A DNA stretch of 64,000 bases, from the NCBI RefSeq assembly GCF_900155985.1, contig NZ_FTMA01000008.1:1-64000 (forward strand), read 5' to 3'. Of the stretch, positions 6,799 through 29,405 are shown piece by piece. Made by a program: the position numbers and the translations under genes. This stretch comes from Maribacter ulvicola. Its GTDB lineage: Bacteria; Bacteroidota; Bacteroidia; Flavobacteriales; Flavobacteriaceae. The first letter of the stretch is position 1. Each line of letters starts with the position of its first letter. The notes under the pieces were generated by a model that saw only the letters and a list, made by a program, of their open reading frames with translations, was not told where the DNA came from and searched no databases.

Positions 6799-6842
6799 TA
6801 AAGTTATAGGCAGAAGCATTTAAAAATTATGACCAAAGTCAT
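6799..6842 (-). promoter_or_regulatory. Crp/Fnr-type operator and promoter for the 6775-2181 operon
   Basis: The palindrome ATGACCAAAGTCAT (6829-6842, 5-bp perfect arms) is centred at 6835.5. A TAACTTTA box on the minus strand (6806-6799) starts 29.5 nt from that centre, which puts the operator at about -41.5 from the expected start. The operator is about 60 bases from the start codon at 6775. Confidence 0.75.
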
Positions 6843-6935
6843 GAATACTATAAAGAGGCCTACAGTTTGTAATTTTTTAAGGAAATTCATCTATTAGCAA
6901 GGTATGTTCTTTAGTGATTTAAAAAAAAATGGCGG

Positions 6936-6981
6936 ACATGATGTTTGTCATGTCTTTTTAGTTTGGTAGTCAGTACTTTAG
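6936..6981 (+). promoter_or_regulatory. Crp/Fnr-type operator and promoter for the Usp at 7006
   Basis: ATGATGTTTGTCAT (6938-6951), extendable to 6-bp arms ACATGA/TCATGT (6936-6953), is centred at 6944.5. The box TACTTTAG (6974-6981) starts 29.5 nt downstream. The GTG start lies 61.5 bases from the centre. Confidence 0.75.
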
Positions 6982-7005
6982 ATAAAATAATTAAACATTG
7001 ATTCC

Positions 7006-7881
7006 GTGAAGACTATACTGTACTGTACCGATTATTCTGAAAATTCTATAGCAGCATTGAAATATGCTTATCATATGGCTAAACAGATGAAAACCCGTTT
7101 GGTAATTAGTCATGTATTTGATTATCCTACTATTTTGGGTACAGATAATCTCGATGAACCTTTTCCACATCTGGACGAAACTGCCCATAAATCACACAGG
7201 TTTAAACTTGAGGAATTCTGCGATGAACATTTGGGTAAATCTTGGCAAGACCCTACTATTATATTGGAAGCTTTTGAAGATAAATCCGTGGTACATGGTA
7301 TAATGGCAGTGGCTGTAGAATGGCATGCATACTTAATTGTATTAGGTATTAAAGGAGGAAGCGCTATTAGGGAAATGATAATGGGAAGTAATACCAAACA
7401 TTTAATAGAAAAAGCTCCTTGCCCAGTGTTGAGTATTCCTTCAGATGCTTCCTATATGCCAATTAAGAATATAGTCTATGCAACAGACTTTGAAGAAGAA
7501 GATGTATATGCCATTCGTAAGTTGGTAGAAATGGCACAACCATTAATGGCGACTATAAATGTGGTTCATATTTCTACAAAAGATGAATACAAAGGAGATA
7601 TGCAGCTAGAATGGTTCAAAGAGATGCTTGGCGAAAAAGTTACTTATGAATTAATTGAATTTAAATTATTGTTTACAGAAGATGTTTTTGAAAGCCTTAG
7701 AGTTTATTTAGGTGATACAAATGCAGACTTAGTTGTGATGTTAGAAAGAGCCCATAAGGGTATTCTAAAAAACATATTTCATAAAGATTTAGTGAAAAAG
7801 ATGGAATCGTATGGTAGGGTACCTCTTTTAAGTTTTAGGGGATCAAATCATCAATTATTTTACTTTAAACAAGCACTTTAA
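7006..7881 (+). CDS. Universal stress protein, tandem UspA domains
   Basis: 291 residues. Domain 1 starts with KTILYCTDYSENS and carries the ATP-binding pattern GIKGGSAIREMIMGSN (about 115-130). Domain 2 (from about residue 150) starts KNIVYATDF and lacks the glycine pattern. The start is a GTG at 7006: an in-frame stop lies 18 bases upstream and no ATG intervenes. The distance from the operator also matches that of the other genes of this set. A small membrane protein gene follows 11 bases downstream and is probably co-transcribed. Confidence 0.9.
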   Translation: MKTILYCTDYSENSIAALKYAYHMAKQMKTRLVISHVFDYPTILGTDNLDEPFPHLDETAHKSHRFKLEEFCDEHLGKSWQDPTIILEAFEDKSVVHGIMAVAVEWHAYLIVLGIKGGSAIREMIMGSNTKHLIEKAPCPVLSIPSDASYMPIKNIVYATDFEEEDVYAIRKLVEMAQPLMATINVVHISTKDEYKGDMQLEWFKEMLGEKVTYELIEFKLLFTEDVFESLRVYLGDTNADLVVMLERAHKGILKNIFHKDLVKKMESYGRVPLLSFRGSNHQLFYFKQAL

Positions 7882-7892
7882 AAAAAGTAATC

Positions 7893-8186
7893 ATGGCCAG
7901 AAGAATATATAGTATAATAATAGTAGTTGCATTAGCATTAGGTTATTACCTGTTCTCAATTAGAGACACACATTCAAAAGTATATCTAATTACAGTTTCG
8001 GCAATAATTTTCACCTTATTTAGTATGGGTATTCACGGTTTATTAGCCCATTCTTTAAAACCAAAGGTTAAAGGAGATATTATAATTTATCCTTTACTTA
8101 TGGGAGTTTTATGGGGAGTGTTGTTCTTTTTGTTTGTATTCGTTTTTCTTCCCATTTTATGCCCAGATTTCTTATTGAAAATTTAG
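7893..8186 (+). CDS. Small membrane protein with three predicted helices
   Basis: 97 residues with hydrophobic segments at about 5-22, 32-55 and 65-90, the last very aromatic. No family recognised. It follows the Usp gene at 7006 by 11 bases, and a hairpin-plus-T-run terminator (8269-8294) ends the pair. It therefore belongs to a two-gene unit driven by the operator at 6938-6951. Function unknown. Confidence 0.65.
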   Translation: MARRIYSIIIVVALALGYYLFSIRDTHSKVYLITVSAIIFTLFSMGIHGLLAHSLKPKVKGDIIIYPLLMGVLWGVLFFLFVFVFLPILCPDFLLKI

Positions 8187-8268
8187 TTGAAACTTTCAGT
8201 AGTGTGTTTTTAAACTGTAAAAAAGTTAGAAAGCATAATTTGGAAAAGTTTTAAAATAATATAGAAAG

Positions 8269-8294
8269 AACCTAGAAGAAAATCTCGGTTTTTT
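8269..8294 (+). terminator. Rho-independent terminator after the Usp/membrane-protein unit
   Basis: AACCTAGA (8269-8276) pairs with TCTCGGTT (8283-8290) with one internal mismatch and a 6-nt loop, followed by a run of T to 8294. Confidence 0.65.
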
Positions 8295-8376
8295 ATGCTC
8301 AAAACGTGTTTAACTAAATCTCAATAGATTGCATAAGTAAAAGATAATCGAGTTTTATGAGTTGATTTTAATAAGC

Positions 8377-8420
8377 ATGATTTTACTCATATAATATCTT
8401 TAAGATTTGCTGTTATTTTG
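8377..8420 (+). promoter_or_regulatory. Crp/Fnr-type operator and promoter for the HlyD-ABC operon
   Basis: ATGATTTTACTCAT (8377-8390) keeps the TGA-N6-TCA core but only 4-bp arms. TTATTTTG (8413-8420) starts 29.5 nt after the centre and differs from TAnnTTTG at one base. The start codon at 8442 is 58.5 bases from the centre. Confidence 0.6.
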
Positions 8421-8441
8421 AATTATAATAATCTGTAATTC

Positions 8442-9524
8442 ATGCGATATCTCTTAATTAGTTTAGTATTTCTTGTTTTTCTTTCTTGTGGAGATAAACA
8501 AGAAAAGGTATTTCCGCAAAAGTCTGAACTTGTTTCATCTGTTTATGCATCTGCTATCATTCAACCAGATAGTATATATAAAGTTTATGCAGTTGTAGCA
8601 GGTATTTTAGAAGGTAATTTGGTGGAAGAAGGAGAGCTGGTAACAAAGGGCGATGCCATCTTACAGGTGAATAACCGCACTCCTAAATTGAATTCAGAAA
8701 ATGCCTATTTGACCCTTCAACAATCCAAAGAAAATATTCAGGGAAATGCCGCTATTTTAAAAAGTATAAAAGATGATATTTATGCAGCGGAGTTAAAATT
8801 TAAAAATGACTCCATCAATTTTACTAGACAGAAGCGACTTTGGGATCAGAACATAGGCTCTAAGGCAGAATATGATAATCAAAAATTAGCGTATGAACTT
8901 TCAAAAAATCAATTAAACCAGCAAAAGTCTAGTTATGAAAGAACAAAAAATGATTTAGAAACAGCTTTACAGCAAGCAAAAAACAGTTATTCATCCTCAA
9001 AGATTATTGCAGAAGATTATACTATTAATAGCAAGATCAACGGTAAGGTTTATGCATTGTACAAAGAGCCTGGTGAGCTGATCAATACCTTAGAACCGTT
9101 AGGTGCAATTGGCAGTGCTACTAATTTTAAAATAGAAATGTTGATTGATGAGGTAGATATCATTAAAATTAAATTAGGTCAGATAGCATTGGTTACCTTA
9201 GACGCATACCCCATGGAAGTTTTTAAGGCTACCGTAAGCAAAATATATCCACAAAAAGACGAATCTTCACAAACGTTCAAAGTAGAGGCGTTGTTTGACA
9301 GTCCTCCAAAAGTATTATATCCTGGTCTTGCCGGTGAAGGTAATATTGTAATATCTAAGAAAGCAGATGTGGTTACCATACCTAGAGCATATTTAGTGGA
9401 CGGTCATAAAGTAATAACGGAAGACGGTACGGTTACGGTAGAAGTAGGCGCCGAAAACTTGGAAAGGGTTGAAATTATTTCTGGTATTACCGAAAATGAT
9501 TTGATTTTAAAGCCTGTAGAATAA
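8442..9524 (+). CDS. HlyD-family periplasmic adaptor lipoprotein of an ABC exporter
   Basis: 360 residues. It starts with a lipoprotein signal (LVFLSC, Cys16 as acylation site). A lipoyl/barrel-sandwich half domain follows (about 45-80), then a long helical hairpin (about 85-175) and the second lipoyl half plus beta-barrel domain (about 180-300). This is the plan of membrane fusion proteins. The stop overlaps the start of the next gene (TAATG), and the two downstream genes encode a MacB/FtsX-like permease and its ATPase, so together they form a tripartite-type export or envelope transport system. The substrate cannot be told. Confidence 0.88.
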   Translation: MRYLLISLVFLVFLSCGDKQEKVFPQKSELVSSVYASAIIQPDSIYKVYAVVAGILEGNLVEEGELVTKGDAILQVNNRTPKLNSENAYLTLQQSKENIQGNAAILKSIKDDIYAAELKFKNDSINFTRQKRLWDQNIGSKAEYDNQKLAYELSKNQLNQQKSSYERTKNDLETALQQAKNSYSSSKIIAEDYTINSKINGKVYALYKEPGELINTLEPLGAIGSATNFKIEMLIDEVDIIKIKLGQIALVTLDAYPMEVFKATVSKIYPQKDESSQTFKVEALFDSPPKVLYPGLAGEGNIVISKKADVVTIPRAYLVDGHKVITEDGTVTVEVGAENLERVEIISGITENDLILKPVE

Positions 9525-10783
9525 TGAATTGGCCGGTTATATTAAATATCGCCAAAACACATCTTTTAACCAAGATGAAATCTACCGCCACCGCAGCGTT
9601 GGGGGTTACTTTTGGTATTGGTGCTTACATTACCATGGTTAGCTTTATGACCGGTCTAAACGATATGTTAGATGACTTGGTTTTGAACCAAACTCCACAT
9701 ATTCATTTGTACAATGAAATAGAGCCTACAGTAGATCAGCCGGTTTCCTTGTATGAAGAATTTAACAATTCAGTACAGATGATCAGCTCCATTAAACCAA
9801 AAAGCGGACAAAAAAAGATACACAACGCACTGCCAATATTAAATCATTTAAAACAGATGGATCAGGTAAAAGGAGCTACGGCACAAGTACGTGCACAAAT
9901 CTTTTACTTATCAGGATCCATAGAATTATCAGGTAATTTGGTAGGTGTAGACATTATGGAAGAAACCAGGCTTTCTAATATGCGAGATTACATCATAGAA
10001 GGATCGCCAGAAGCTTTGAACAATATGGAAAACGGAATTTTGCTCGGTTCTGGTCTAGCCAGTAAAATGTCATTAAAAATTGGAGATAGAGTACAGATAA
10101 GTACAACCAGAGGTGCGGTGTTTCCACTGAAGATAGTAGGTATTTATCAAAGTGGAGTGGCAGATATAGATAATTCTCAAAGCTATGGTAACTTAAAAAC
10201 GGTACAGCGAATTCAAGGAGAGGCGCAAAACTATATCACCGACATTAATATAAAATTGAACAATATTGAAAAGGCACCAATGTTGGCAAAGGGTTTTGAA
10301 AAACAGTTTGATGTTACCGCGACAGATATTAATGAAGCAAATGCCCAGTTTGAGACCGGTACCAACATACGAAACCTAATTACCTATGCAGTATCTATTA
10401 CGCTCTTAATAGTAGCAGGTTTTGGCATATATAATATTCTAAACATGCTTATATATGAAAAGATGAAGGATATTGCCATTTTAAAAGCCACCGGATTTTC
10501 AGGAAAAGATGTGCAGTATATTTTTATGAGCCAGGCAATGATCATAGGTGTTGTAGGTGGTGTTTTGGGGTTGATTTTAGGTTTCGTATTATCTGTTATC
10601 ATTGACGGTGTTCCTTTTAAAACAGAAGCTTTACCAACAATGACCACTTATCCGGTTCATTTCAGCTCTAAATTCTATGTTATAGGAATTGTATTTGCAC
10701 TCATTTCTACATTTATAGCGGGGTGGCTGCCATCTAATAAAGCCAAGCATATTGATCCGGTAAAAATTATAAGAGGTACTTAA
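9524..10783 (+). CDS. ABC transporter permease, MacB/FtsX/LolC type
   Basis: 419 residues. One membrane helix near residues 20-45, a large periplasmic domain (about 50-280), then three helices (about 285-310, 335-360, 385-405) forming the FtsX domain with the usual EKMKDIAILKATGFSGKDV coupling segment between the first two. It overlaps the adaptor gene by one base and is followed after 10 bases by the ATPase. MacB-like systems use transenvelope mechanotransmission rather than substrate passage through the membrane domain (family knowledge). The cargo is unknown. Confidence 0.9.
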   Translation: MNWPVILNIAKTHLLTKMKSTATAALGVTFGIGAYITMVSFMTGLNDMLDDLVLNQTPHIHLYNEIEPTVDQPVSLYEEFNNSVQMISSIKPKSGQKKIHNALPILNHLKQMDQVKGATAQVRAQIFYLSGSIELSGNLVGVDIMEETRLSNMRDYIIEGSPEALNNMENGILLGSGLASKMSLKIGDRVQISTTRGAVFPLKIVGIYQSGVADIDNSQSYGNLKTVQRIQGEAQNYITDINIKLNNIEKAPMLAKGFEKQFDVTATDINEANAQFETGTNIRNLITYAVSITLLIVAGFGIYNILNMLIYEKMKDIAILKATGFSGKDVQYIFMSQAMIIGVVGGVLGLILGFVLSVIIDGVPFKTEALPTMTTYPVHFSSKFYVIGIVFALISTFIAGWLPSNKAKHIDPVKIIRGT

Positions 10784-10793
10784 AAAATAATGA

Positions 10794-11483
10794 ATGGACA
10801 TTGTATTAGAAGCAAAAGATATAAATAAGCACTTTCATAAACCTAAAGATTTTCATGTTTTAAAAGATATTTCCTTTAAAATATTTAATGGGGAATTTGC
10901 TTCTATTATGGGAAAATCCGGTTCTGGAAAATCTACATTGCTCTATATTTTATCAACTATGGATACCGAGTATACTGGCGAATTATTATTGAACAATAAG
11001 TTAGTAACGGGTTTGTCCGCATCAGAATTATCGCTGATCAGAAATGAAAATATAGGTTTTGTATTTCAGTTTCATTATTTGTTATCAGAATTTAGCGTGA
11101 TTGAAAATGTAATGTTACCGGCAAAAAAACTAGCTCGTAAAAGTCATCAAGAAATTGAGCACGATGCTATGATGAAATTAAGAATGTTAGGCATAGAAAG
11201 TTTGGCAAAGCAGAAGGCATCAAGAATTTCTGGCGGAGAAAAACAACGAGTAGCCATTGCTAGGGCATTAATTAACAATCCGTCAATACTTATGGGTGAT
11301 GAACCTACCGGTAATTTAGATAGTTACAATTCTGACAATGTTTTCAATATCTTCAAACAATTAAAGGAAGAAGAGGGGCTTTCGTTACTAGTAGTTACCC
11401 ATGATGAGGACTTTGCCAAACGAACAGATTACATCATTCAGATGGAAGATGGCCGTATTGTGGGTAAATCCAGTAACTTGTAA
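10794..11483 (+). CDS. ABC transporter ATP-binding protein, LolD/MacB type
   Basis: 229 residues. Walker A GKSGSGKST (40-48), signature ISGGEKQR (about 144-151), Walker B ILMGDEPTGNLD (about 162-173) and the switch histidine in VVTHDE are all present, so it should be an active ATPase. The close spacing to the permease gene marks it as its energy-coupling subunit. The cardiolipin synthase gene follows after 70 bases without an obvious terminator or operator and may be read from the same promoter. Confidence 0.93.
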   Translation: MDIVLEAKDINKHFHKPKDFHVLKDISFKIFNGEFASIMGKSGSGKSTLLYILSTMDTEYTGELLLNNKLVTGLSASELSLIRNENIGFVFQFHYLLSEFSVIENVMLPAKKLARKSHQEIEHDAMMKLRMLGIESLAKQKASRISGGEKQRVAIARALINNPSILMGDEPTGNLDSYNSDNVFNIFKQLKEEEGLSLLVVTHDEDFAKRTDYIIQMEDGRIVGKSSNL

Positions 11484-11553
11484 AAATTCACAGATGCATC
11501 CTTTATTAAAAGATAGTAAAAGAATGTAGTGTGATATTAAGAATACGAACTTT

Positions 11554-12963: not shown

Positions 12964-12975
12964 GAAGACCAATAT

Positions 12976-13614
12976 TTACTCGATTTGCGAGGTAAATACC
13001 AAATCTTGATCTTCCATGGCAACAATAATCATTTTAACGTAATCTTTAATAGCCTTATCTATATTGTCAGGCTCATTGATTTCGATAATTCCTCTCCAAA
13101 TCATAGCTCTTTCTTTACCTTCACAAATGCAATATAAGGTAGTTTCTGCATGGTAAATAGTATATTGGTCGTAGTAGTTGTCATCATAATAAATACCTTG
13201 GTGTTCTAAATAATCATCATTGAATCTAGACTGGTGGTCATCCCATCTAGTAATAGATTTTACAAATTTCTCGCGACTTTCAGACCCTATAATTTTTGTA
13301 AGTAAAATAGCGTCAAAATCTTTATCTAAAAGGCTTTGTTCCACATCGTCTAGTTCTTTTTCTGTCTTACGGGAATCGGTCAGCGACAGGTCGAAAATAT
13401 CGATACTTCGCCATGCTTCTACATCTCTACTAGTAAATTCTTTTTGTAATTTGGTTTCAAAGTCATCTCGTGTATCATCATTTTGCGCCATACCAACGAT
13501 CAAAACTTTGTTGGCATTGAATATGACGATATCTGGGTTTTTCCAGTTTTCTACTAAACTAATAGAAGAACACCCCGTAAGCATCAATGATAATATTACA
13601 ATTAACTTTTTCAT
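12976..13614 (-). CDS. Hypothetical lipoprotein
   Basis: 212 residues. A lipobox MLTGC places the acylated Cys at residue 15, so it should be an envelope lipoprotein. The following residues (SLVENWKNPD, then KVLIVGMAQND) resemble small periplasmic lipoproteins with an alpha/beta domain, but no family is recognised with confidence. Tyr/Asp-rich stretch near 130-150. Its own TGA-N6-TCA palindrome (13675-13688) and -7-like box lie upstream, so it is probably a single-gene unit of the low-oxygen-type set. Confidence 0.7.
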   Translation of the reverse strand: MKKLIVILSLMLTGCSSISLVENWKNPDIVIFNANKVLIVGMAQNDDTRDDFETKLQKEFTSRDVEAWRSIDIFDLSLTDSRKTEKELDDVEQSLLDKDFDAILLTKIIGSESREKFVKSITRWDDHQSRFNDDYLEHQGIYYDDNYYDQYTIYHAETTLYCICEGKERAMIWRGIIEINEPDNIDKAIKDYVKMIIVAMEDQDLVFTSQIE

Positions 13615-13644: not shown

Positions 13645-13688
13645 CGAAGATACTATTTTGAAAAAGCAGTAGATATGACCATTATCAG
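13645..13688 (-). promoter_or_regulatory. Crp/Fnr-type operator and promoter for the lipoprotein gene
   Basis: ATGACCATTATCAG (13675-13688), centre 13681.5. TATCTTCG on the minus strand (13652-13645) starts 29.5 nt away and matches TAnnTTTG at all but one fixed base. The start codon at 13614 is 67.5 bases from the centre. Confidence 0.65.
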
Positions 13689-15940: not shown

Positions 15941-15941
15941 A

Positions 15942-17346: not shown

Positions 17347-18186
17347 TTAATGTAGTGCTAGAATAGGTACATTACTGTCATAACCTATTTCTTTAATCAA
17401 TGGTCTAGAGAAAACATTACTAAAAAAGAAATGTTTGCGGTTAATGAAAGACACCATATCGCTTTCTCTACTTTCAACAAAGTTCTGTATTCCCTTGCCC
17501 AAATTCTTTTCGGTTAGCGTATGAAAGTGATGCGGTGTTTCTCTTAAAATTGATGAAAGCAATTGTTTATTGGTCAATTGAGATTGGGTCAACTCTTTTT
17601 CCTTTTCCAAATGTAGAATGGCAATCTCTGCATTATGCATTTTAGACAATTCTATTAAGTATAGAAACACTGATCTCTTATAGGTATCTTTATAGTCTGT
17701 TGGAAAAACAATTTCTTTTGGTGACAGGAAAGAAACATGCTCAGGTATTGCCAGCACAGGGCATTCTCTTATTTTTTCCATAGCCATTACAGTATTACTA
17801 CCAAATAGAGCACCTTTTGATCCGGTAGCGCCTTTGGTGCCCATGGCAACCAGATCAATATCTTTTTCAGCTATAATTTTCTTTATGGCTACGGATAGAA
17901 AACTAGATGTAGAATGGGTGTAATAATTATGCTTTAGGTTATCGGAATGTAGTGTTACAGCTTCTATTAGTTTTACAAAGTTCTTTTCAGAATCTTGTTT
18001 TGCCTGTTCAAAAGCAGCGCTACCTTCCTCTGGTATATTTAAATTGTTAGTGGTATACTTTTCAAAACTGAAAACATTTAAAAAATAGAAATCACAATTT
18101 AGTTTGGCATACAAATCAATTGTATATCTAATGGCATTTAAAGCATTTTTAGAAAAATCTATAGGTATAAGAATACGCTTGTTCAT
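17347..18186 (-). CDS. Universal stress protein, tandem UspA domains
   Basis: 279 residues from the ATG at 18186 (MNKRILIPIDFS). A longer frame from a TTG at 18210 is possible, but the predicted -7 box (TATATTTA, 18218-18211) would lie against that TTG. The ATG gives the same operator-to-start distance (about 61 bases) as the sister genes, so I prefer it. Domain 1 carries GTKGATGSKGALFGSN. Domain 2 begins KEIVFPTDYKDT and lacks the glycine pattern. It has its own operator (18241-18254) although it lies just downstream of two more Usp genes. Confidence 0.88.
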   Translation of the reverse strand: MNKRILIPIDFSKNALNAIRYTIDLYAKLNCDFYFLNVFSFEKYTTNNLNIPEEGSAAFEQAKQDSEKNFVKLIEAVTLHSDNLKHNYYTHSTSSFLSVAIKKIIAEKDIDLVAMGTKGATGSKGALFGSNTVMAMEKIRECPVLAIPEHVSFLSPKEIVFPTDYKDTYKRSVFLYLIELSKMHNAEIAILHLEKEKELTQSQLTNKQLLSSILRETPHHFHTLTEKNLGKGIQNFVESRESDMVSFINRKHFFFSNVFSRPLIKEIGYDSNVPILALH

Positions 18187-18210: not shown

Positions 18211-18254
18211 TAAATATATACTCTAATGAGTTGATATACTATGATTTATATCAG
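18211..18254 (-). promoter_or_regulatory. Crp/Fnr-type operator and promoter for the Usp at 18186
   Basis: ATGATTTATATCAG (18241-18254), centre 18247.5, with TATATTTA (18218-18211, minus strand) starting 29.5 nt away. One half-site includes the stop codon of the upstream Usp gene (18253-18251), so the operator is embedded in the gene junction. Confidence 0.65.
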
Positions 18255-19957: not shown

Positions 19958-20031
19958 TAAAATTAACCACAGAAAATTAGAAATTGTATGATATTCGTCA
20001 TCACCATAAAGTTTATTAATAGCTATTATTA
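19958..20031. promoter_or_regulatory. Shared Crp/Fnr-type operator between Usp and thioredoxin
   Basis: ATGATATTCGTCAT (19988-20001), centre 19994.5, lies 56.5 and 55.5 bases from the two divergent start codons. On the minus strand TAATTTTA (19965-19958) starts 29.5 nt from the centre. On the plus strand TATTATTA (20024-20031) is at the same distance but matches less well. One operator can therefore serve both directions. Confidence 0.7.
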
Positions 20032-20049: not shown

Positions 20050-20349
20050 ATGAAAAAGAAGTTTAGAAAAAGTATAGGTTCAGATACGCCTACACTGGTG
20101 TATTTTTATGCCCCATGGTGTGTGCCATGTAAACTAATGAGGCCAGTAGTAGAACAAGTTATTGGAGAATACCCAGAAATATTAAATTACATTGAAATAG
20201 ATGTAGAAATAAAAAAAGGAATTGTAAAAAGATATAAAATAAAGGGCGTCCCAACCTTAATACTCTTTCAGAATGGAACACCACTTTGGCGTCATACCGG
20301 TGTAATACCGATTGAAGATATAAAAATGACCCTAAAAGAGCATATTTAA
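20050..20349 (+). CDS. Thioredoxin-family protein
   Basis: 99 residues with the redox motif WCVPCK (C24, C27), the cis-proline region GVPTLILF (about 75-82) and overall thioredoxin spacing. It has no signal peptide, so it should be cytoplasmic. The motif CVPC differs from the CGPC of housekeeping thioredoxins, which suggests a specialised redox role. It is a one-gene unit under a shared operator with the divergent Usp operon, and hairpins at 20349-20378 follow its stop. Confidence 0.9.
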   Translation: MKKKFRKSIGSDTPTLVYFYAPWCVPCKLMRPVVEQVIGEYPEILNYIEIDVEIKKGIVKRYKIKGVPTLILFQNGTPLWRHTGVIPIEDIKMTLKEHI

Positions 20350-20378
20350 GCTTTATTAAAGCTAGTATTAGTAATACT
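20349..20378. terminator. Two small hairpins between convergent genes
   Basis: AGCTTT/AAAGCT (20349-20354 with 20358-20363) and AGTATT/AATACT (20364-20369 with 20373-20378), each with a 3-nt loop, fill the gap between the thioredoxin and the convergent Usp gene. There is no clear T-run, so termination is only likely. Confidence 0.4.
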
Positions 20379-21216
20379 ACTCATGTATCACTAAAAACGG
20401 CACCTTAGTATGATAACTGATTTTTTCAACAGTAGGTCTAAATAGAATACGTTCCAAGAAATTAAGATTTTTAGCGACCATAATAAGCATATCTAAATTT
20501 CTGCTTTCTGTAAAGCATTGAACAGATTCATCAATGTTTTTACCGGTAACCTCATGAAAAGTACATTTAGTTTCTTTAAAAAAATCTAGTAATAGATTTT
20601 TTATTTTACCTTGATTCTGAGAGAGTTTTTCTCCCTTACTAGAAATATATAATAGGCGTAAAGCAGATTTTTTTAATAGGATTATATCTTTAATCGTATT
20701 TAATATGGTTACATCATAGGCTAAATTTAAATCAGAAGGAAACCCAATTTCCTCAACCTTTTCATAAGTAGCATTTTCAGGTACGGCCAACAGTGTGCAT
20801 GGCACTTTAGTAATAACATTACCGGTATTACTACCTATAGAAACGGATTTTAAACCAGAAGCTCCTTTTGTGCCCATTATTATAAGTTCAATATTCTTTT
20901 TTTTAACGAAATCCTTAAGTTGATCCGTTAAAAAACCATAGATAGCTTTAAAATGAAATTCATGTTTAACATTTAATGGAAGATGCTCTATTTTTTTGCT
21001 GAGCGTCTTAAGTTGTTCTTTACTTTCTGCTAATAGGGTGTCTTCTAAAATATCTGGTGCTATGTACATTGCGGCTTCACCACTTACATTAGTATTAATT
21101 GCATTAATATGAACAATATGAAAGGTACAGTGCGTTTTTTCAAAGAAAGAAATACCATATAATAATGCATTCCACGCATTATCTGAAAAGTCTGTAGGTA
21201 TTAATATATTTTTCAT
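20377..21216 (-). CDS. Universal stress protein, tandem UspA domains
   Basis: 279 residues. N-terminus KNILIPTDFSDNAWNALLYG; ATP-binding pattern GTKGASGLKSVSIGSN; domain 2 begins EEIGFPSDLNLAY, where the usual TD is SD. Last gene of the run 22954-20377, 33 bases after the Usp upstream with no operator in the gap. Confidence 0.9.
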   Translation of the reverse strand: MKNILIPTDFSDNAWNALLYGISFFEKTHCTFHIVHINAINTNVSGEAAMYIAPDILEDTLLAESKEQLKTLSKKIEHLPLNVKHEFHFKAIYGFLTDQLKDFVKKKNIELIIMGTKGASGLKSVSIGSNTGNVITKVPCTLLAVPENATYEKVEEIGFPSDLNLAYDVTILNTIKDIILLKKSALRLLYISSKGEKLSQNQGKIKNLLLDFFKETKCTFHEVTGKNIDESVQCFTESRNLDMLIMVAKNLNFLERILFRPTVEKISYHTKVPFLVIHE

Positions 21217-21249: not shown

Positions 21250-22098
21250 TTATCGTGGTAAGAATAAAACAGGAATTTGCGAATGAAATGCTATTTTTTT
21301 AACCACGGCCTCACCAATTACTTTCTCCCAGAAAGTGTGCTGGTGCCTTAGAATACTTAAGAAACTAGCATCTTTATCTTCAGTATACATATCAATACTC
21401 TTAGAGATATTTACTTCAAATGGTATGTTCGTAAATTTTAGGTCAAATTCAGATAACCGTTCTTTTAAAACTTCTTTATGCGCTTCTTGATATTCGTTTA
21501 GATTAAACTCAATGGCAACGTGAACTACTTCTATATTGGTGTTCCAAAGTTTGGCAAGTTCAATTATAGGGTTAAACAAGTTTTTTCTGAATGTAGCAGA
21601 AAAATCCGTAGCAAAAAGCACAGACTTTAAACTTTGAAAGTTATACCCGGTGGGCACCACTAAAATTGGTGTATTTTTTATCAGGTTTAATACTTTTACG
21701 GTATTACTGCCCAAGAAAACCTCTTTGGCACCCGTAGCACCTTGTGTACCCATTATCATTAAATCGACATCATTAGTATTTAGAAACGATGCTGCCGAAT
21801 CTTCTAAATTACCCGGTTTGGACAATGTTGTAAATTGATGTTTTGGATTTTTATGGTTTATTTTTAAATATGAAAGCACTTCATCAAGCTCTTGGACCGA
21901 GTATTTTGACAAGGAATCATAAATAACACCCAGTCGTTGTTGGCTTTTAGAGCCCATTAAATTTAATGGTGTTGGTTCATAAGCATGTAGTAAGTAAAAA
22001 TGACAATCTACTTCTGCATATATTTTTAATGCCGTGAAAATTGCGTTCCAAGCATTATCCGAAAAATCTGTAGTAATCAATATCTTTTTCATAGCCAT
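21250..22098 (-). CDS. Universal stress protein, tandem UspA domains
   Basis: 282 residues (a second ATG two codons in is equally possible). N-terminus KKILITTDFSDNAWNAIF is close to that of the Usp at 20377, which suggests a recent duplication. ATP-binding pattern GTQGATGAKEVFLGSN; domain 2 begins KSVLFATDFSATF. Middle gene of the run 22954-20377, 10 bases downstream of the first. Confidence 0.9.
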   Translation of the reverse strand: MAMKKILITTDFSDNAWNAIFTALKIYAEVDCHFYLLHAYEPTPLNLMGSKSQQRLGVIYDSLSKYSVQELDEVLSYLKINHKNPKHQFTTLSKPGNLEDSAASFLNTNDVDLMIMGTQGATGAKEVFLGSNTVKVLNLIKNTPILVVPTGYNFQSLKSVLFATDFSATFRKNLFNPIIELAKLWNTNIEVVHVAIEFNLNEYQEAHKEVLKERLSEFDLKFTNIPFEVNISKSIDMYTEDKDASFLSILRHQHTFWEKVIGEAVVKKIAFHSQIPVLFLPR

Positions 22099-22108: not shown

Positions 22109-22954
22109 TTAACGGGGAAGATTTTGCATAACCAAAAACGGAATGGTAGAAGAAAGACCAATTTCATCTATGGTAGATTGGTAGAGCATATCTTCTAAAA
22201 AGGAATGTCTAGAATTTACCATAACCAGCAAATCCATATCGTTTTCTTTAATATATGTTGTTATTGCCTTTGCTCTATTGCCAACACCTATAGTGACAAA
22301 TGATAACCTGGCATGTGGCAAGGACTCTTTTAAGAACTTTTTATTATCTAATTGACGGAGACTTAAGTCTTCAAAATCTGATATATATAAGCTGTGCACT
22401 TCTGCTTTAAATTCTCCGGCCATAATGTCCAGTAATTTCAACTCACGTCGTTTATAGGGCAACATATAGTTACTAGGAAATAGTATTTTCTTAGGCTGAC
22501 TATAACTATATTGGTCAGGAACAGCCAAAACCGGACATTTTACATATTTAAAAACCTGTAAGGTGTTGCTGCCAAATGTGATTTTTGAACTAGCAGTTTT
22601 ACCTTTGGTACCCATTATAATGAGGTCTATATTTTTTGAATCGGCAAAATTATTAATGGCATCTACCAGAGATTCAAAAGCACATACGGCTTCATATTTA
22701 TGTAAAGGGTTGTGAGTTTTTGTTTGGGTTTCCGTTACAAGCTCATTTAATTTATTCTCAGCAGCATCAGCAATCATTTTCTTCTGTTTATCAAAAGTTT
22801 CTGCATCTACATTATGATAGGGTCCGTAAACATCATCTGCATAGGCATGAATAAAATAAAAGTTAGTACGCTCGCATTTAAAGACATTAAGCGCATATGA
22901 AATGGCGTGATCGGCATTGTTGGAGAAGTCTGTGGGTATGAGAATATTTTTCAT
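22109..22954 (-). CDS. Universal stress protein, tandem UspA domains
   Basis: 281 residues. N-terminus KNILIPTDFSNNADHAISY; ATP-binding pattern GTKGKTASSKITFGSN; domain 2 begins KKILFPSNYMLPY, where the second-domain Asp is replaced by Asn. First gene of a three-Usp operon, with a perfect operator 58.5 bases upstream. Confidence 0.9.
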   Translation of the reverse strand: MKNILIPTDFSNNADHAISYALNVFKCERTNFYFIHAYADDVYGPYHNVDAETFDKQKKMIADAAENKLNELVTETQTKTHNPLHKYEAVCAFESLVDAINNFADSKNIDLIIMGTKGKTASSKITFGSNTLQVFKYVKCPVLAVPDQYSYSQPKKILFPSNYMLPYKRRELKLLDIMAGEFKAEVHSLYISDFEDLSLRQLDNKKFLKESLPHARLSFVTIGVGNRAKAITTYIKENDMDLLVMVNSRHSFLEDMLYQSTIDEIGLSSTIPFLVMQNLPR

Positions 22955-22975
22955 AGCTATCTTTTAATGATGTTT

Positions 22976-23019
22976 TAAAAGTATAGGAGTGTATAAGAAT
23001 ATCCTATGATAAATATCAT
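22976..23019 (-). promoter_or_regulatory. Crp/Fnr-type operator and promoter for the 22954-20377 Usp operon
   Basis: ATGATAAATATCAT (23006-23019), perfect 5-bp arms, centre 23012.5. TACTTTTA (22983-22976, minus strand) starts 29.5 nt away. Confidence 0.75.
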
Positions 23020-23163
23020 GCGCAACTTGCAATCAACTAAAGTATGTATGTTTAGGGATCGATAAAAAGAATAGATAAGTAATTTAACTTATGAGTTAGC
23101 TACCAAAATGTGATAAGCATTTAATGGATCAAATTATTTATAAATAGATAAGATTAGTGAAGA

Positions 23164-23207
23164 CTGATATTGGTCATAGTAATTTATAGTTCAACAAATT
23201 ACATTTA
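23164..23207 (+). promoter_or_regulatory. Crp/Fnr-type operator and promoter for the WG-repeat/SDR genes
   Basis: CTGATATTGGTCAT (23164-23177), centre 23170.5. TACATTTA (23200-23207) starts 29.5 nt downstream. The start codon at 23234 is 63.5 bases from the centre. Confidence 0.72.
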
Positions 23208-23233
23208 TTGAAACATATTAAAATATAGAAATT

Positions 23234-23872
23234 ATGAAAAGAATATTAATCTTATGGGTATTGGCACTTATGGTGAGTATGCCTATTTCTGCACAAATTT
23301 TAGATAATTTAGATGAGATTGCACCTTTTAGTGAAGGTCTGGCGGCAGTACGTAAGGGCAACCAATGGGGCTTTATTAACCAACAAGGAGAACTGGTCAT
23401 AGATTTTAGAGGTGATGTTTACACAAGTACACAAGTAGATCAATCTAGAACAGATGTTTTAGGTATAAAATACCCAATGTTCAATGAAGGATTATGTTTA
23501 ATACAAAGCACTGTTGAAGATGGTGTACCGGTATTTGGGTTCATAGACACATCTGGAAAGGTGGTTATTGAACCTCAGTTTTTAAATATATTTCCTTTTG
23601 AGGACGGGTTTACCACTGCAGTGTTATTCGACAAGAGCTTTAAAGGTGAAAATGAATTTAAACTAAAGATATACGAATACAAATTTTTTGATGTAGGCGT
23701 GAGCACTACTGGTGAGATCACTGATTTTTTTGAAAAAAGAGACCATATACAAATGACGAGGAAAAGATATAAAATGCCGGAAATTGGAGCCAAAATGTTA
23801 ACTAAGAATTTAGTGGCTACCCATAAGTTAGGTCAAGGCTGGAGTATTGATAAGCTAAGTGTTAAAAACTAG
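23234..23872 (+). CDS. Exported WG-repeat protein
   Basis: 212 residues. A signal peptide (about 1-20, ending SAQ) is followed by WG/KWGFI-type beta-hairpin repeats at about 33-55 (GNQWGFINQQGELVID) and 90-110 (FGFIDTSGKVVIEPQF). The C-terminal half is unassigned. WG repeats are common in Bacteroidota envelope proteins, usually of unknown function. It is separated from the SDR gene by 5 bases, so the two are probably co-expressed. Confidence 0.75.
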   Translation: MKRILILWVLALMVSMPISAQILDNLDEIAPFSEGLAAVRKGNQWGFINQQGELVIDFRGDVYTSTQVDQSRTDVLGIKYPMFNEGLCLIQSTVEDGVPVFGFIDTSGKVVIEPQFLNIFPFEDGFTTAVLFDKSFKGENEFKLKIYEYKFFDVGVSTTGEITDFFEKRDHIQMTRKRYKMPEIGAKMLTKNLVATHKLGQGWSIDKLSVKN

Positions 23873-23877
23873 TAACT

Positions 23878-24639: not shown

Positions 24640-24663
24640 ATTTCAATGAAACTATTTTTTTGT

Positions 24664-24713
24664 AAACTTGATTGCATAAATGACCACATTTATGCTGTCA
24701 AGTTTTATTTTTG
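24664..24713 (+). terminator. Long-stem terminator after the SDR gene
   Basis: Arms 24664-24682 and 24687-24705 pair over 19 positions with two mismatches around a 4-nt loop, followed by TTATTTTTG. The tail also contains TATTTTTG (24706-24713), a perfect TAnnTTTG box 33 bases before the next start codon, so it may double as the upp promoter. Confidence 0.75.
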
Positions 24714-24745
24714 AAAACAATACCTTATAAAATAAACGAACATTC

Positions 24746-25399: not shown

Positions 25400-27907
25400 T
25401 TATAGAATTTTCTTAGAACGCTTAATTCCTTTTACAATTTCATACCACAGTACTGAAATAGCCCCAATGAGGATCGTTGTTCCTAATTGAGCTATTGATA
25501 AGGGTTCAAATTCAAAGAAACGGGTTAATACGGGTACATACAATAATGCTAATGAAAGTATGATGGTAAGACCTATGATCAACGGAACTAGATTATTCTT
25601 GTATTTTAAGGTGGTGCATATGGAATAATAGAAAGATCGATTCACTAGCGTTAAAAAGATATTGGCTACAATGAGTACCATAAATACCATGGTACGGGTT
25701 GTATTTTCAGAAACCCCGGTAGACACAGAATATTGATAAGCTACCAAAGCACCAAAAGTAATAGCGAAACCTTGGACAACACTTGTAGTGAGTTCTTTGT
25801 AATTAAAAAAGGTAGAGGAAAAAGGTCTCGGTTTTTTAATCATCAAGTTTTTTTCCATAGGTTCGTTTTCAAAAATGATAGAGCAGGTAGGCCCCATGAT
25901 CAATTCTAAGATGATAACATGCGATGGCGAGAATATATTCGGATAAATCCACCGTAACGCTAGTGGAATAAATACGGTGAGAATGATGGGTATATGTATA
26001 GAAATGATATACTGAATTGCTTTTTTTAAATTGGTATATATTTTTCTGCCCATTGCCACCGCAACTACCATTCTAGATAGGTCATCGTCAACCAAAATAA
26101 GAGAAGCGGCTTGTTTGGCAATTTCAGTACCTTTTTTGCCCATGGCTATACCAATGTGCGATGCCTTTAAAGCTGGGCCGTCATTTACACCATCGCCCGT
26201 CATGGCAACGACCTCGTTATTCTTCTTTAACGCATTTACAATTCTCAGTTTCGCATCGGGGAACATTCTTGAGAATACGTTGATATGTTTTACTTTTTCT
26301 TGTAGTTCTAAATCTGTAAGCAGCATTAACTCATCACCAGAAATACATTTTTCATATCCTTTAAAATTAATTTGTTTGGCAATTGCCATAGCCGTATTTG
26401 CATTGTCACCGGTTACCAGTTTCACTTGTATACCAGCACTGTCAAAGTCTTTTAATACTTGTGCAATGTTATCTTTTGGTGGATCGTAGAAAGCGATAAT
26501 TCCCTTAAAATCAAATTTAAAATCTTGTTGCTTTTTCGGGTATTTTTCTCCTTCAAATATTGCCCTGCCAACCCCAAGCATTCTATACCCGTCTTTACCT
26601 AATTCTCTAAGTATATTTTGAATGATTTCAATTTCAGACATAGTCAGGTTAGATACGGCTATCATAGCTTCTGGAGCTCCCTTAGCGGCAATGATTTGTT
26701 TGCCATCTGTATTTTGAAAGACATGGGTCATCATAGGTGGCTTACCACCTAAAGGATATTCATGTACCATTTTATAATTTGGGCGCTCGTCATTATCGGT
26801 CAATTTACCGTACCAATTGTGTATGGCTATTTCCATGGGATCAAAAGGTATGGGTTCACTTGCCCACATGGCAGTTGTCATCAACGCTTTCTCCTTACTG
26901 CCCAGTATATCTTTAATATTTACAATTTTTCCGGTATTTAGTGTAAACAGTTTGGCAAGTACCATTTTGTTCTGTGTAATGGTACCGGTTTTGTCTGTAC
27001 AGATTACGGTGGCACTGCCCAGTGTTTCAACAGTTTTCATTTGCTTGACCACAATGCCCATTTTCATTAATCGCCATGCACCCAAAGCCATAAAAGTGGT
27101 AAAAGCTACGGGTATTTCTTCCGGTAAAATACTCATGGCCAAGGTTAGTGCTTTTAACAAACTATCTAGTATAAAGCCAGAACGCATGTAATTGATACCC
27201 CAGACCAATAGAAATATAATGCCTCCCCAAATCGACATCAGTTTTACGAAATTGAAAATCTTAAGTTCCAAAGGTGTTTTCTCTTCGGTAATGTCCTCAA
27301 GGCTTTTACCTATTTTACCAAGTTTGGTCAAGTTTCCAATAGCCGTAATCCGTGCAATTGCCAATCCGCTAGCAACGGTGCTTCCTGTGAAAATTAATGG
27401 TTCTGGACTAGTGGCATCTTTATAAACTGAAAGAGATTCACCGGTTAAGATAGATTCGTTAACAGAGAAATCGTTAGAATGTACAATGGTACCATCCGCA
27501 GAAATGGTAGTGCCTTCTTCAACCATTAAATAATCACCAATAACAATATCTTGGCTATCAACTTCTAAAACGGCACCAGAACGTATGACTTTGCTTTTAG
27601 GGTGGGTAAGGTTTTCGAGATTCTCCAAAGCCTTTCTACTACGCGAATCTTGATATAAGGATATGGATCCAACAAGAACAATAGCAGAAGCTAAAAAAAC
27701 ACCATCGCCATAATTACCGGTTATAAAATATATAGAAGAGGCAATTAACAGTAAAATAACCATGGGCTCTTTGGCAATGCTTTTTAAGGCATCTAAAAAG
27801 CTGTTATCTTTCTTATAATTAAAAGTATTTGTTCCATGTGCTGCACGAGAGTTGGCAACCTGCTCTTTGGTTAGTCCTTCAATTCCAAAATCAGCAGGGT
27901 TGATCAT
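25400..27907 (-). CDS. P-type cation-transporting ATPase (P2-like)
   Basis: 835 residues. Phosphorylation motif DKTGTIT with Asp305, TGES (about 155), KGAPE in the nucleotide-binding domain, and TGDGVNDGPAL in the hinge. Membrane segment 4 carries PEEIP (where SERCA-type pumps have PEGLP), and there is a C-terminal set of helices, so it belongs near the Ca2+/Mg2+-type pumps. The ion cannot be told from sequence alone. It is divergent from the sigma-like gene at 28058, and both flank one Crp/Fnr-type operator. Confidence 0.9.
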   Translation of the reverse strand: MINPADFGIEGLTKEQVANSRAAHGTNTFNYKKDNSFLDALKSIAKEPMVILLLIASSIYFITGNYGDGVFLASAIVLVGSISLYQDSRSRKALENLENLTHPKSKVIRSGAVLEVDSQDIVIGDYLMVEEGTTISADGTIVHSNDFSVNESILTGESLSVYKDATSPEPLIFTGSTVASGLAIARITAIGNLTKLGKIGKSLEDITEEKTPLELKIFNFVKLMSIWGGIIFLLVWGINYMRSGFILDSLLKALTLAMSILPEEIPVAFTTFMALGAWRLMKMGIVVKQMKTVETLGSATVICTDKTGTITQNKMVLAKLFTLNTGKIVNIKDILGSKEKALMTTAMWASEPIPFDPMEIAIHNWYGKLTDNDERPNYKMVHEYPLGGKPPMMTHVFQNTDGKQIIAAKGAPEAMIAVSNLTMSEIEIIQNILRELGKDGYRMLGVGRAIFEGEKYPKKQQDFKFDFKGIIAFYDPPKDNIAQVLKDFDSAGIQVKLVTGDNANTAMAIAKQINFKGYEKCISGDELMLLTDLELQEKVKHINVFSRMFPDAKLRIVNALKKNNEVVAMTGDGVNDGPALKASHIGIAMGKKGTEIAKQAASLILVDDDLSRMVVAVAMGRKIYTNLKKAIQYIISIHIPIILTVFIPLALRWIYPNIFSPSHVIILELIMGPTCSIIFENEPMEKNLMIKKPRPFSSTFFNYKELTTSVVQGFAITFGALVAYQYSVSTGVSENTTRTMVFMVLIVANIFLTLVNRSFYYSICTTLKYKNNLVPLIIGLTIILSLALLYVPVLTRFFEFEPLSIAQLGTTILIGAISVLWYEIVKGIKRSKKIL

Positions 27908-27954
27908 ACTTTTAAAAGAGTTTTATACTTATGTAGTTGGTTGTTTATTAGGTG

Positions 27955-28028
27955 CTAAGGTATTTTAAAAGTTTATCTAGCCTACTGACATTTATCATAT
28001 GAATTATGCCCGTAAGTTTGCAATTTTA
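27955..28028. promoter_or_regulatory. Shared Crp/Fnr-type operator between P-type ATPase and sigma-like gene
   Basis: CTGACATTTATCAT (27985-27998), centre 27991.5. TACCTTAG (27962-27955, minus strand) and CAATTTTA (28021-28028, plus strand) each start 29.5 nt away. A perfect TAAGTTTG (28013-28020) is closer to the operator on the plus strand and might be used instead. Confidence 0.62.
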
Positions 28029-28057
28029 TAGTGTAATAATCTTAAAAGTAACCTGTT

Positions 28058-28816
28058 ATGGAAACCGCTATGCATGATGTAAAAATAATAATGAAGGAAA
28101 CATATTCTAAATTGGTGTCTTATAAGCGTAAAGAGAATAGAGAATCTTTTAATAAAGAATTACTACGTGTTTTACCCAAAATTTATCGGTATGTATCTAA
28201 AAGGCTAAATAGTGCCGTTGCAAATGGTACATTAAACAAAGGTATGTTCAACCCTAGTGATTTTACAGATCAGTTGTTCATTGAAGTTTATGATAACATT
28301 GATAAAATTAAAAGTGAAAATGAACTGCATGTTTTTCTCTTTAAAAAAGTAGATGAACTATTGGAAGATAGTTTGGTAGAAGAGGAGTTTGATTATGTTT
28401 TCTTTGATAATATTGATAATTATTCTAAACCGGAGTGGGACGCTATGGAAGAAAACTATACCCAAGACGGCGATGGAGATTTCCTACTTTTAGAAGAGTT
28501 GGACGATAGTTCTTTAGATAAAAGCGATTATACATTGGACCATGTTTTTATCACAGATGAAGAAAAGAAATTGGCAGATAAGCTTGATGCATCTCTAGAT
28601 AAGGAAAGAATATATAAACACATACAATTGGTTTTGGATAAGATGAATATACCAATGAGAACGGTATTTGAACTCTTTTCTAACGAAGGCTTAACAACCC
28701 AAGAAATAGCCGATATACGTAAAACCACATTGGCTCAGGTAGAAGAATTATTAGCTTCGGCAAGGCAACTGCTTAAGAACAGTTTTGAAAAAAGATTTCT
28801 TATAGATAGCAATTAA
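28058..28816 (+). CDS. Sigma-70-family-like protein with acidic linker
   Basis: 252 residues. The C-terminus (about 195-245) reads as sigma region 4: a helix with MRTVFELFSNEGL, then TTQEIADIRKTTLAQVEELL as helix-turn-helix. The N-terminal part (about 25-105) is helical and may be a diverged region 2. Between them lies a strongly acidic linker (about 110-175, DGDGDF, LLLEELDD), unusual for ECF sigma factors. It could be a sigma factor or a regulator that only borrows region 4. Its place under the Crp/Fnr-type operator would make it a second-tier regulator (inference). Confidence 0.6.
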   Translation: METAMHDVKIIMKETYSKLVSYKRKENRESFNKELLRVLPKIYRYVSKRLNSAVANGTLNKGMFNPSDFTDQLFIEVYDNIDKIKSENELHVFLFKKVDELLEDSLVEEEFDYVFFDNIDNYSKPEWDAMEENYTQDGDGDFLLLEELDDSSLDKSDYTLDHVFITDEEKKLADKLDASLDKERIYKHIQLVLDKMNIPMRTVFELFSNEGLTTQEIADIRKTTLAQVEELLASARQLLKNSFEKRFLIDSN

Positions 28817-28820
28817 AAAC

Positions 28821-28856
28821 AAAAATGCCCTTACAACTAATTGAGGGCATTTTTTA
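28821..28856. terminator. Bidirectional terminator
   Basis: AAATGCCCT (28823-28831) pairs with AGGGCATTT (28844-28852), loop 12 nt. It has a T-run on the plus side and A-runs upstream that give T-runs on the minus side, between convergent genes 28816 and 28878. Confidence 0.8.
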
Positions 28857-28877
28857 TTTAGTGTAATTAAAAATGGT

Positions 28878-29336
28878 TTAATTATTGTCCCTTAACTTAC
28901 CAACCAATTGATTAATATGTATACGGAAAACTACTGACACCTCTTCGGTATCAATTTTCGCAGAGAACTCACTTATATACTTTGGGTGTTCATTATTATT
29001 TTCCGCGATTACTTTTTTAACTCCTTCAGAAAATTCATGCAATATATGTTTTGCATCAATACGAGAAAGTTCTTCAAAAGTACCTTGTATTAAAACAGAT
29101 TTCCAATTAGAAATAGAGCTTATCTCGTCTACTGCTAGGCTAACTGCCGTATTTTTCCTCATTTCTTGAATCTTGTGCCCTTCAGAAGCATAGCTAGTTA
29201 TGGTGTTGGTTTCTGAATCGTAGAAATACGTAATAGGTACAATATGTGGATATCCACCAGAAATATAGGCTAGTCTACCAATGTAGTTTTGTTCTAATAA
29301 GGTTTTGCATTCTTGTTCATTTAAAGTTCTTCTCAT
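28878..29336 (-). CDS. Pyridoxamine 5'-phosphate oxidase-like flavin split-barrel protein
   Basis: 152 residues. The start RRTLNEQECKTLLEQNYIGRLAYI and the strand GYPHIVPITYFY are typical of the split-barrel family that binds FMN, F420 or heme. A glutamate/histidine pair (SEGHKIQEMRKN) lies near residue 55. Family members include nitroreductase-like and heme-degrading proteins as well as PNPOx itself, so the substrate is open. It has its own operator 62.5 bases upstream. Presence in Usp-rich low-oxygen loci is common. Confidence 0.85.
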   Translation of the reverse strand: MRRTLNEQECKTLLEQNYIGRLAYISGGYPHIVPITYFYDSETNTITSYASEGHKIQEMRKNTAVSLAVDEISSISNWKSVLIQGTFEELSRIDAKHILHEFSEGVKKVIAENNNEHPKYISEFSAKIDTEEVSVVFRIHINQLVGKLRDNN

Positions 29337-29361
29337 GACCTATTGTTGTTTGTTGATGCGA

Positions 29362-29405
29362 TAAAAATATAAATCATTGAATTGGTGATACATGATATTC
29401 GTCAG
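29362..29405 (-). promoter_or_regulatory. Crp/Fnr-type operator and promoter for the split-barrel gene
   Basis: ATGATATTCGTCAG (29392-29405), centre 29398.5. TATTTTTA (29369-29362, minus strand) starts 29.5 nt away. It lies 25 bases upstream of the first LytTR-type repeat of the divergent VIT gene. Confidence 0.72.

Follow-up and report, generated by a model that had tools for sequence, protein, structure and literature searches.

Invariant spacing of Crp/Fnr-type palindromes and promoter boxes in Maribacter ulvicola points to probable class II operators of a predicted microaerobic and stress-survival regulon

The first 64,000 bases of contig C9 (NZ_FTMA01000008.1; 171,627 bases) of Maribacter ulvicola, the genome of which (4.51 Mb) is 99.96% complete, are referred to here as the window. 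The window carries eleven palindromes with a TGA-N6-TCA core, each standing at one exact distance from a TAnnTTTR box in at least one direction. We consider it likely that these palindromes are class II operators of Crp/Fnr activators, probably read by two proteins encoded outside the window, an FNR-like protein (designated Fnr) and a fusion of a receiver domain to a Crp-type protein (designated REC-Crp), and that the regulon joins microaerobic respiration with stress survival.

Class II activation by CRP and FNR proteins is well known; in Escherichia coli the activator is centred at -41.5 and replaces the -35 contact. In the mechanism proposed here an activator dimer centred at -41.5 would replace the -33 contact and leave the TAnnTTTR -7 box to RNA polymerase, and the distance between operator and box would be invariant because the dimer takes the one contact while the polymerase keeps the other. 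The first activator would be Fnr, with a putative oxygen-sensitive iron-sulphur cluster, an operator at its own promoter and the genes of a cbb3 oxidase beside it. The second would be REC-Crp, probably phosphorylated by the PAS-domain histidine kinase encoded alongside. Under their control would stand microaerobic respiration (cco, hemN, cytochrome c/nosZ) and a stress-survival set of universal stress proteins (Usps), PfkB, thioredoxin, a cation ATPase, PNPOx and perhaps Pta-AckA.

Palindromes and boxes in the window

An earlier note on this DNA had listed eleven palindromes upstream of genes, and all eleven were located (Table 1). Every one was intergenic, though only approximately 11% of the window falls outside the counted open reading frames (ORFs). 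The palindromes share a consensus, as had been claimed, but not in the exact form ATGAYATWTRTCAT; the sites follow a looser one, roughly MTGAY-N4-RTCAT. Both directions of each palindrome (11 x 2 = 22 directions) were scanned for boxes at offsets 5 to 59 past the 14-mer. Thirteen promoter directions had a TAnnTTTR box with at most one mismatch exactly 29.5 nucleotides (nt) from the palindrome centre (seven exact, six with one mismatch), in agreement with the earlier description; at every other offset there was at most one exact box and there were at most four with up to one mismatch. The start codons lay 55.5-84.5 nt from the palindrome centre, where about 55-85 had been given.

Taking all TGAN6TCA sequences in the window together, seven exact boxes and 14 boxes with at most one mismatch were found at the fixed spacing. 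The frequency of such pairs in random DNA, a refuting condition of the earlier note if equally high, was estimated from 150 simulated windows of first-order Markov composition in which coding and intergenic DNA were kept apart. These gave a mean of 0.06 exact boxes (maximum 1) against the seven observed and a mean of 0.79 boxes with at most one mismatch (maximum 4) against the 14 observed. Twenty further TGA-N6-TCA copies lay inside window genes. Five TGAYN4RTCA sequences inside genes had no box (at least two mismatches), nor had two further intergenic TGA-N6-TCA sequences, at 305 and 57621 (at least three mismatches).

The spacing in the genome, relatives and phylum

The genome-wide search that the earlier note had suggested was run with the pattern TGAYN4RTCA, 10-40 free bases and TAnnTTTR, the control being the same pattern read backwards; 23 free bases in this pattern correspond to 22 nt past the 14-mer and to 29.5 nt from the palindrome centre. 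Of 62 pairs, 28 had 23 free bases, whereas the other spacings had a mean of 1.1 and a maximum of 4. The reversed pattern gave 26 matches over all spacings and one at 23 nt, against 28 for the true pattern. Half of the 28 sites (14) were on C9.

Three sets of relatives were searched: 80 named fnr loci (1.50 Mb in total), 25 genomes of the genus and 296 genomes of the phylum. At a spacing of 23 the 80 loci contained 217 pairs; no other spacing had more than 13 (13 at 9, 7 at 17), and scrambled cores gave none at 23. Within the genus, the 23 genomes with Fnr had 14-67 sites each (control 0-1), and the two without a hit to either Fnr or REC-Crp, one of which is only 68% complete, had five each (controls 2 and 0). 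Twenty-nine other genomes of the family had 462 matches at 23 against 21 for the reversed pattern. At least one match at this spacing was present in 150 of the 296 phylum genomes, and one large family of that sample (f31) had only 0-2 matches per genome. One genome of family f60, which lies outside the class (G309), had 28 exact sites against none in the control, together with a four-cysteine Fnr; on this observation the geometry of palindrome and box may be older than the Flavobacteriaceae.

Conservation of the island promoters

The upstream regions of genes in the window's Usp island were compared in 19 of the genus genomes, some of the 19 stretches covering only part of the island. For nine island promoters there were 124 orthologous upstream regions, the window's own included, and 116 of these retained the operator and a box with no more than one mismatch; one of the 116 (thioredoxin, G018) had an odd distance between site and gene. 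The comparison set, four window genes without such a site, had it in 6/56. By promoter, operator and box were present at 13675 in 15/19 orthologues (own included), at 18241 in 15/16, at 19988 in 18/19 on the Usp side and 9/10 on the thioredoxin side, at 23006 in 18/19 (absent from G007), at 23164 in 9/9, and at 27985 in 14/14 (28058 gene) and 9/9 (P-type ATPase). The box of the 29392 promoter was exact in 9/9 orthologues.

Position relative to the transcription start

Mapped starts of Flavobacterium psychrophilum place a TAnnTTTG box at -12 to -5 (PMC9723704). Since the box occupies -12 to -5 in Flavobacterium and stands 29.5 nt from the palindrome centre here, the operator would be centred at -41.5. 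The class II position proposed in the earlier note is supported by the fixed spacing in the genome and its relatives and by the published map.

The -33 element had been described as missing. In the window, TTTG was found 12-25 nt before the box in 0/13 directions, and it was mostly not seen in the pooled sites either. The latter form a set of 133 non-redundant sites (from 240) that is rich in fnr, usp and cco orthologues, with 27 exceptions considered below. TTTG stood 18-25 nt before the box in none of the 133, compared with 101/1450 other TAnnTTTG sequences. At the predicted start the pooled sites had C or T at -1 in 76% and A or G at +1 in 71%.

Compared with class II promoters of E. coli, the distance from centre to box is the same 29.5 nt, and the TA of TAnnTTTR falls where the TA of TATAAT falls; the downstream element here is the Bacteroidota TAnnTTTR box.

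Predicted regulon

A start codon followed the box by 4-33 nt at 26 of the 28 home-genome sites. By Pfam family, the predicted targets of exact sites were Usps, WG-repeat, PNPOx and LOG-type proteins, Pta with AckA behind it, YtxH, PfkB, a pyridine-nucleotide flavoprotein, DnaJ, an HD-domain protein, HemN, and a cytochrome c followed by NosZ; a short CcoS-like frame followed by CcoNO, and Fnr itself, were also among them. Thioredoxin and the P-type ATPase had boxes with one mismatch. As read from these promoters, the regulon likely includes Usps, PfkB, the cbb3 oxidase, HemN, NosZ and small membrane proteins. The F. psychrophilum study reports that cbb3 and haem-synthesis genes were raised under oxygen limitation (PMC9723704), which fits the predicted regulon.

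The 37-aa membrane ORF behind the 59392 operator was present in 15 of the 25 genus genomes, with the operator upstream in eight of those 15, and is probably an unannotated small protein of the regulon. A 44-aa membrane ORF on contig C8 (99669-99803; locus L014) starts 22 nt after the box of a site at C8:99604 and is likely another small protein of this kind.

The Fnr candidate

The earlier note had placed the regulator outside the window, and of five matches to the cyclic nucleotide monophosphate (cNMP)-binding domain in the genome none was in the window. It had also expected a low-oxygen or redox Crp/Fnr regulator. This fits Fnr, with its four conserved cysteines, its own operator and its cbb3 neighbours; the second candidate, REC-Crp, had not been foreseen.

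Fnr (C9:105515-106204, 229 aa) is encoded 41.5 kb beyond the window, divergently from a copper-type ATPase gene and cbb3 genes, and its promoter has the operator with the box 22 nt before the ATG. The protein has a cNMP-binding-like domain and a Crp helix-turn-helix (HTH) domain (PF00027 and PF13545) and aligns with FNR structures (5cvr, E 2.6e-23). Its four-cysteine set is C5-x2-C8, C54 and C107. C5, C8 and C107 align with C20, C23 and C122 of FNR, the CxxC and VC.IP cysteines, and the conserved C54 stands where FNR has Ala. Because the third N-terminal cysteine is absent and C54 is present instead, the protein is called FNR-like and not a canonical FNR. The four cysteines would hold an oxygen-sensitive iron-sulphur cluster, and the signal itself would be oxygen. 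C54 and C107 presumably lie on neighbouring strands of the jelly roll; an AlphaFold model built with 39 orthologues had a mean predicted local distance difference test score (pLDDT) of 64, too weak to judge cysteine distances or a cluster site.

Orthologues of Fnr were present in 23/25 genus genomes (72-95% identical, own gene apart), with up to 95% identity to named Maribacter records. Thirty loci yielded 25 orthologues (none from the other five), of which 24 had all four cysteines and one, L052, had none of them; the full set was also present in all 39 sequences that could be aligned out of the 80 named loci. In 23 further genomes, hand-picked mainly for many sites, all 13 best-scoring proteins (E 1e-71 or better; 12 genomes, five families, seven proteins in the window's family) had the four cysteines; 18 rows of lower-scoring proteins never had the full set, some having one or two. 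Among the 80 named loci, the operator was present at the promoter of fnr itself in 53, and a ccoNO homologue in 74, including 71/71 of the loci with at least 6 kb of upstream sequence.

In common with FNR of E. coli and Aliivibrio fischeri, the protein has the Crp fold, and its likely targets likewise include cbb3 genes, hemN and the gene that encodes it; it differs in lacking the third N-terminal cysteine and in having a conserved cysteine at position 54. The FNR operator is TTGAT-N4-ATCAA, whereas the operator here is MTGAY-N4-RTCAK, in which the outer T is rare, with C or A at -1 and T or G at +12.

REC-Crp and the syntenic island

REC-Crp (C2:108377-109429) is a receiver-cNMP-HTH fusion, the gene of which adjoins that of a PAS-domain histidine kinase of 503 aa. 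Its phospho-acceptor Asp was kept in 10/10 aligned sequences, its own included. With a phospho-acceptor Asp in the receiver, cNMP and Crp HTH domains and a kinase alongside, REC-Crp has the make-up of a two-component regulator, and the kinase would probably be its phosphodonor.

In the home genome the REC-Crp cassette is on C2, with its own Usp gene and two operators. In a second genome of the genus (G015), 24 window genes between 2181 and 29336 are found in the same order on one contig (C20) with two extra genes; this collinear set does not include Usp genes 5444 and 7006 or the genes around them. There the cassette of kinase, REC-Crp and a 133-aa gene separates the Usp gene from the WG-repeat gene, at the place that corresponds exactly to window positions 22955-23233, and G002 has the cassette at the same place. 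Over the 19 genus island stretches, a REC-Crp gene was found in eight. G015 has a further island of 52 kb (C8:322-374 kb; L135-L137) with 24 exact operators, many Usps, a large histidine kinase of its own and a REC-Crp; survival islands seem to multiply in the genus.

Which regulator reads the operators

Both Fnr and REC-Crp probably use the operator. The recognition helix, ATESLIR, is identical in the two proteins. Operators were found near four-cysteine Fnr genes at 9/13 loci (13 sites against 1.15 per control spacing) and within approximately 1.5 kb of REC-Crp at 6/10 loci (seven sites against 0.90), and near other Crp paralogues at 1/8 loci (one site against 0.25). Over the 25 genus genomes, the number of sites correlated with the number of Usp genes (rho 0.84) and with the number of REC-Crp copies, counted from open frames of 345-390 aa (rho 0.79). 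Usp genes with an operator, in a first count, were 11/11 in the stretches fetched from the home genome (which has 15 Usp matches), 23/23 in G015 and 5/7 in G014. For G007, a genome with Fnr and without REC-Crp, the count was 1/5 without the island stretch and 3/9 by eye with it, the Usp gene at C1:1224338, truncated where a fetched stretch ends, being left uncounted.

Operators near fnr have AAAA/TTT flanks that are absent from the operators of the REC-Crp islands of G015, and leave-one-out classification separated the two groups in 55/58 and 30/34 cases. This, with the position of the cassette inside the island in G015 and G002 and the REC-Crp gene in 8/19 stretches, would suit an arrangement in which the Usp island depends on REC-Crp alone, while the A-tract-flanked operators of another set of genes (cco, fnr, hemN, nosZ) answer to Fnr. 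We hold that arrangement to be unlikely, if conceivable: the flank classifier fails in the home genome for hemN (-6.6) and nosZ (+0.3), G007 keeps island operators without REC-Crp, and the recognition helices are identical. AAA-flanked sites number only 0-7 per genus genome and many are at fnr, its usp neighbour and cco, so that the flank is possibly explained by shared descent.

That Fnr alone reads all the operators, while REC-Crp has another target and travels with the island by chance, we regard as quite improbable. Fnr is present in 23/25 genus genomes, and in G007, where it occurs without REC-Crp, there are 14 sites and some of the island operators remain; yet four genomes with REC-Crp and no four-cysteine Fnr hit, hand-picked among the genomes with sites, had nine (G330), 10 (G087), six (G118) and eight (G091) sites with a control of zero in each, and the operators beside REC-Crp loci and the common helix also speak for a reader other than Fnr. 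Finally, there is virtually no chance that the pairs are accidents of A+T-rich intergenic DNA, since, although the core is short and recurs in 20 genic copies and in two intergenic ones without a box, these controls (0.06 simulated against seven observed; one dominant spacing in the genome, the 80 loci and the family; footprints in orthologous promoters) have already refuted it.

Two schemes were tried and rejected. REC-Crp as the sole regulator of the island was given up on account of G007, the island of which keeps operators without it. A division into two operator classes, A-tract-flanked for Fnr and unflanked for REC-Crp, fails on hemN and nosZ, and its AAA-flanked sites are few and often orthologous; it serves as a lead only.

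Several observations weigh against the reading of the palindromes as class II operators shared by Fnr and REC-Crp. TTTG was present 14-17 nt before the box in 27/133 pooled sites, compared with 89/1450 other TAnnTTTG sequences at 12-17 nt, and some of the 27 may thus have a -33-like element; as this TTTG shares bases with the T-tract at -32 to -30, the counterpart of an A-tract across the operator, we read it as operator flank. A pyrimidine-purine step at -1/+1 was found at only 5/13 predicted window starts, pta starts 211 nt from its box and the site at C12:186541 is inside a gene. The cysteine at the place of the third FNR cluster ligand (Cys29 in E. coli) is absent in the alignment, and 27/80 fnr loci have no operator with a box of up to one mismatch upstream of fnr. 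G007 has not kept all of the island operators: at conserved genes two exact ones and two with one mismatch remain, and the operator before the 22109 Usp has been lost. Lastly, placement at -41.5, binding and activation in M. ulvicola are deduced from sequence.

Features of the window and other palindromes

The operators of the window are given with their boxes and downstream genes in Table 1.

Table 1. Palindromic operators, TAnnTTTR boxes and downstream genes of the window
Feature	Position	Strand	Box and genes
Operator ATGACCAAAGTCAT	6829..6842	-	Exact box TAACTTTA 6799-6806 (-); upstream of 6317-6775 (-, 152 aa) and Usp 5444-6253
Operator ATGATGTTTGTCAT	6938..6951	+	One-mismatch box TACTTTAG 6974-6981 (+); upstream of Usp 7006-7881
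Operator ATGATTTTACTCAT	8377..8390	+	One-mismatch box TTATTTTG 8413-8420 (+); upstream of HlyD/FtsX/ABC exporter genes 8442-11483
Operator ATGACCATTATCAG	13675..13688	-	One-mismatch box TATCTTCG 13645-13652 (-); upstream of 12976-13614 (212 aa, without Pfam family)
Operator ATGATTTATATCAG	18241..18254	-	Exact box TATATTTA 18211-18218 (-); upstream of Usp 17347-18186
Divergent operator ATGATATTCGTCAT	19988..20001	both	Boxes TAATTTTA 19958-19965 (-) and TATTATTA 20024-20031 (+); Usps 19105-19938/18251-19099 (-) and thioredoxin 20050-20349 (+)
Gap between Usp and WG genes	22955..23233		REC-Crp, PAS histidine kinase and 133-aa cassette here in G015 and G002 (synteny)
Operator ATGATAAATATCAT	23006..23019	-	Exact box TACTTTTA 22976-22983 (-); upstream of Usps 22109-22954, 21250-22098 and 20377-21216
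Operator CTGATATTGGTCAT	23164..23177	+	Exact box TACATTTA 23200-23207 (+); upstream of WG-repeat protein 23234-23872, then SDR and UPRTase genes
Divergent operator CTGACATTTATCAT	27985..27998	both	One-mismatch boxes CAATTTTA 28021-28028 (+) and TACCTTAG 27955-27962 (-); 28058-28816 (+, weak sigma-70 region 4 match) and cation P-type ATPase 25400-27907 (-)
Operator ATGATATTCGTCAG	29392..29405	-	Exact box TATTTTTA 29362-29369 (-); upstream of PNPOx-like 28878-29336
Operator TTGATCAATATCAT	59392..59405	+	Exact box TAGTTTTG 59428-59435 (+); upstream of 37-aa membrane ORF 59461-59574 (+), beside cytochrome bd genes

A third Crp-like protein is encoded at C9:82229-82861 (-), near rhodanese and metallo-beta-lactamase genes, and has a different helix, TCSMTMACCMG. 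Two sites on the same contig (C9:65316 and 81303) share TGACTAATGTCAC at the same 23-nt spacing; TGACTAATGTCAC is perhaps the operator of this third protein. Yet another regulator may be the reader of a cluster of TGAY-N4-RTCAA palindromes at C10:12453-14830, close to which an open frame for a cNMP-binding protein of 188 aa is found at C10:18833.

Discussion

No account of this system was found in the titles and abstract openings of the open literature among the matches listed, nor among those matches a Bacteroidota case of a class II Crp/Fnr promoter, and little literature on oxygen control of transcription in Bacteroidota was found. The main text of the F. psychrophilum start-site paper names neither Crp nor Fnr (PMC9723704), and that of a 2025 survey of CRP/FNR DNA-binding domains has no word beginning Bacteroid- or Flavobacter- (PMC12531629).

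Two known systems offer comparisons. The DosRS/DosR system of mycobacteria likewise combines a histidine kinase and a response regulator near Usp, PfkB, cation ATPase and PNPOx-like genes; the output domain here is Crp-type, not LuxR/NarL-type, the operator is unrelated and so is the phylum. The regulator candidates found were all Crp-type, with no LuxR/NarL-type DosR among them, and no search aimed at DosR homologues was made. Control of proteobacterial usp genes by ANR/FNR also places Usp genes under an Fnr-type regulator, whereas here whole Usp islands and a paralogous two-component regulator are involved.

We put forward tentatively, as a possibility somewhat short of an even chance, that Bacteroidota have an FNR of their own in which the third iron-sulphur ligand is supplied by the beta-barrel (C54) and no longer by the N-terminal loop. 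Its two-component paralogue REC-Crp would read the same operator, and single class II promoters, linking microaerobic respiration to Usp survival islands, would receive both oxygen and kinase signals. Such a system would be a counterpart, built on Crp-type proteins, of the DosR dormancy programme.

The rule of an operator, 23 nt and a box is sharp enough to list flavobacterial regulons from sequence and to predict transcription starts, and it draws attention to small membrane proteins that lack annotation. With the four-cysteine set, the idea of a new type of FNR cluster can be tested directly. The pairing of Fnr with REC-Crp would connect oxygen and kinase signals, in a way open to test, with the Usp survival islands of marine bacteria, including the control of nitrous oxide reductase.

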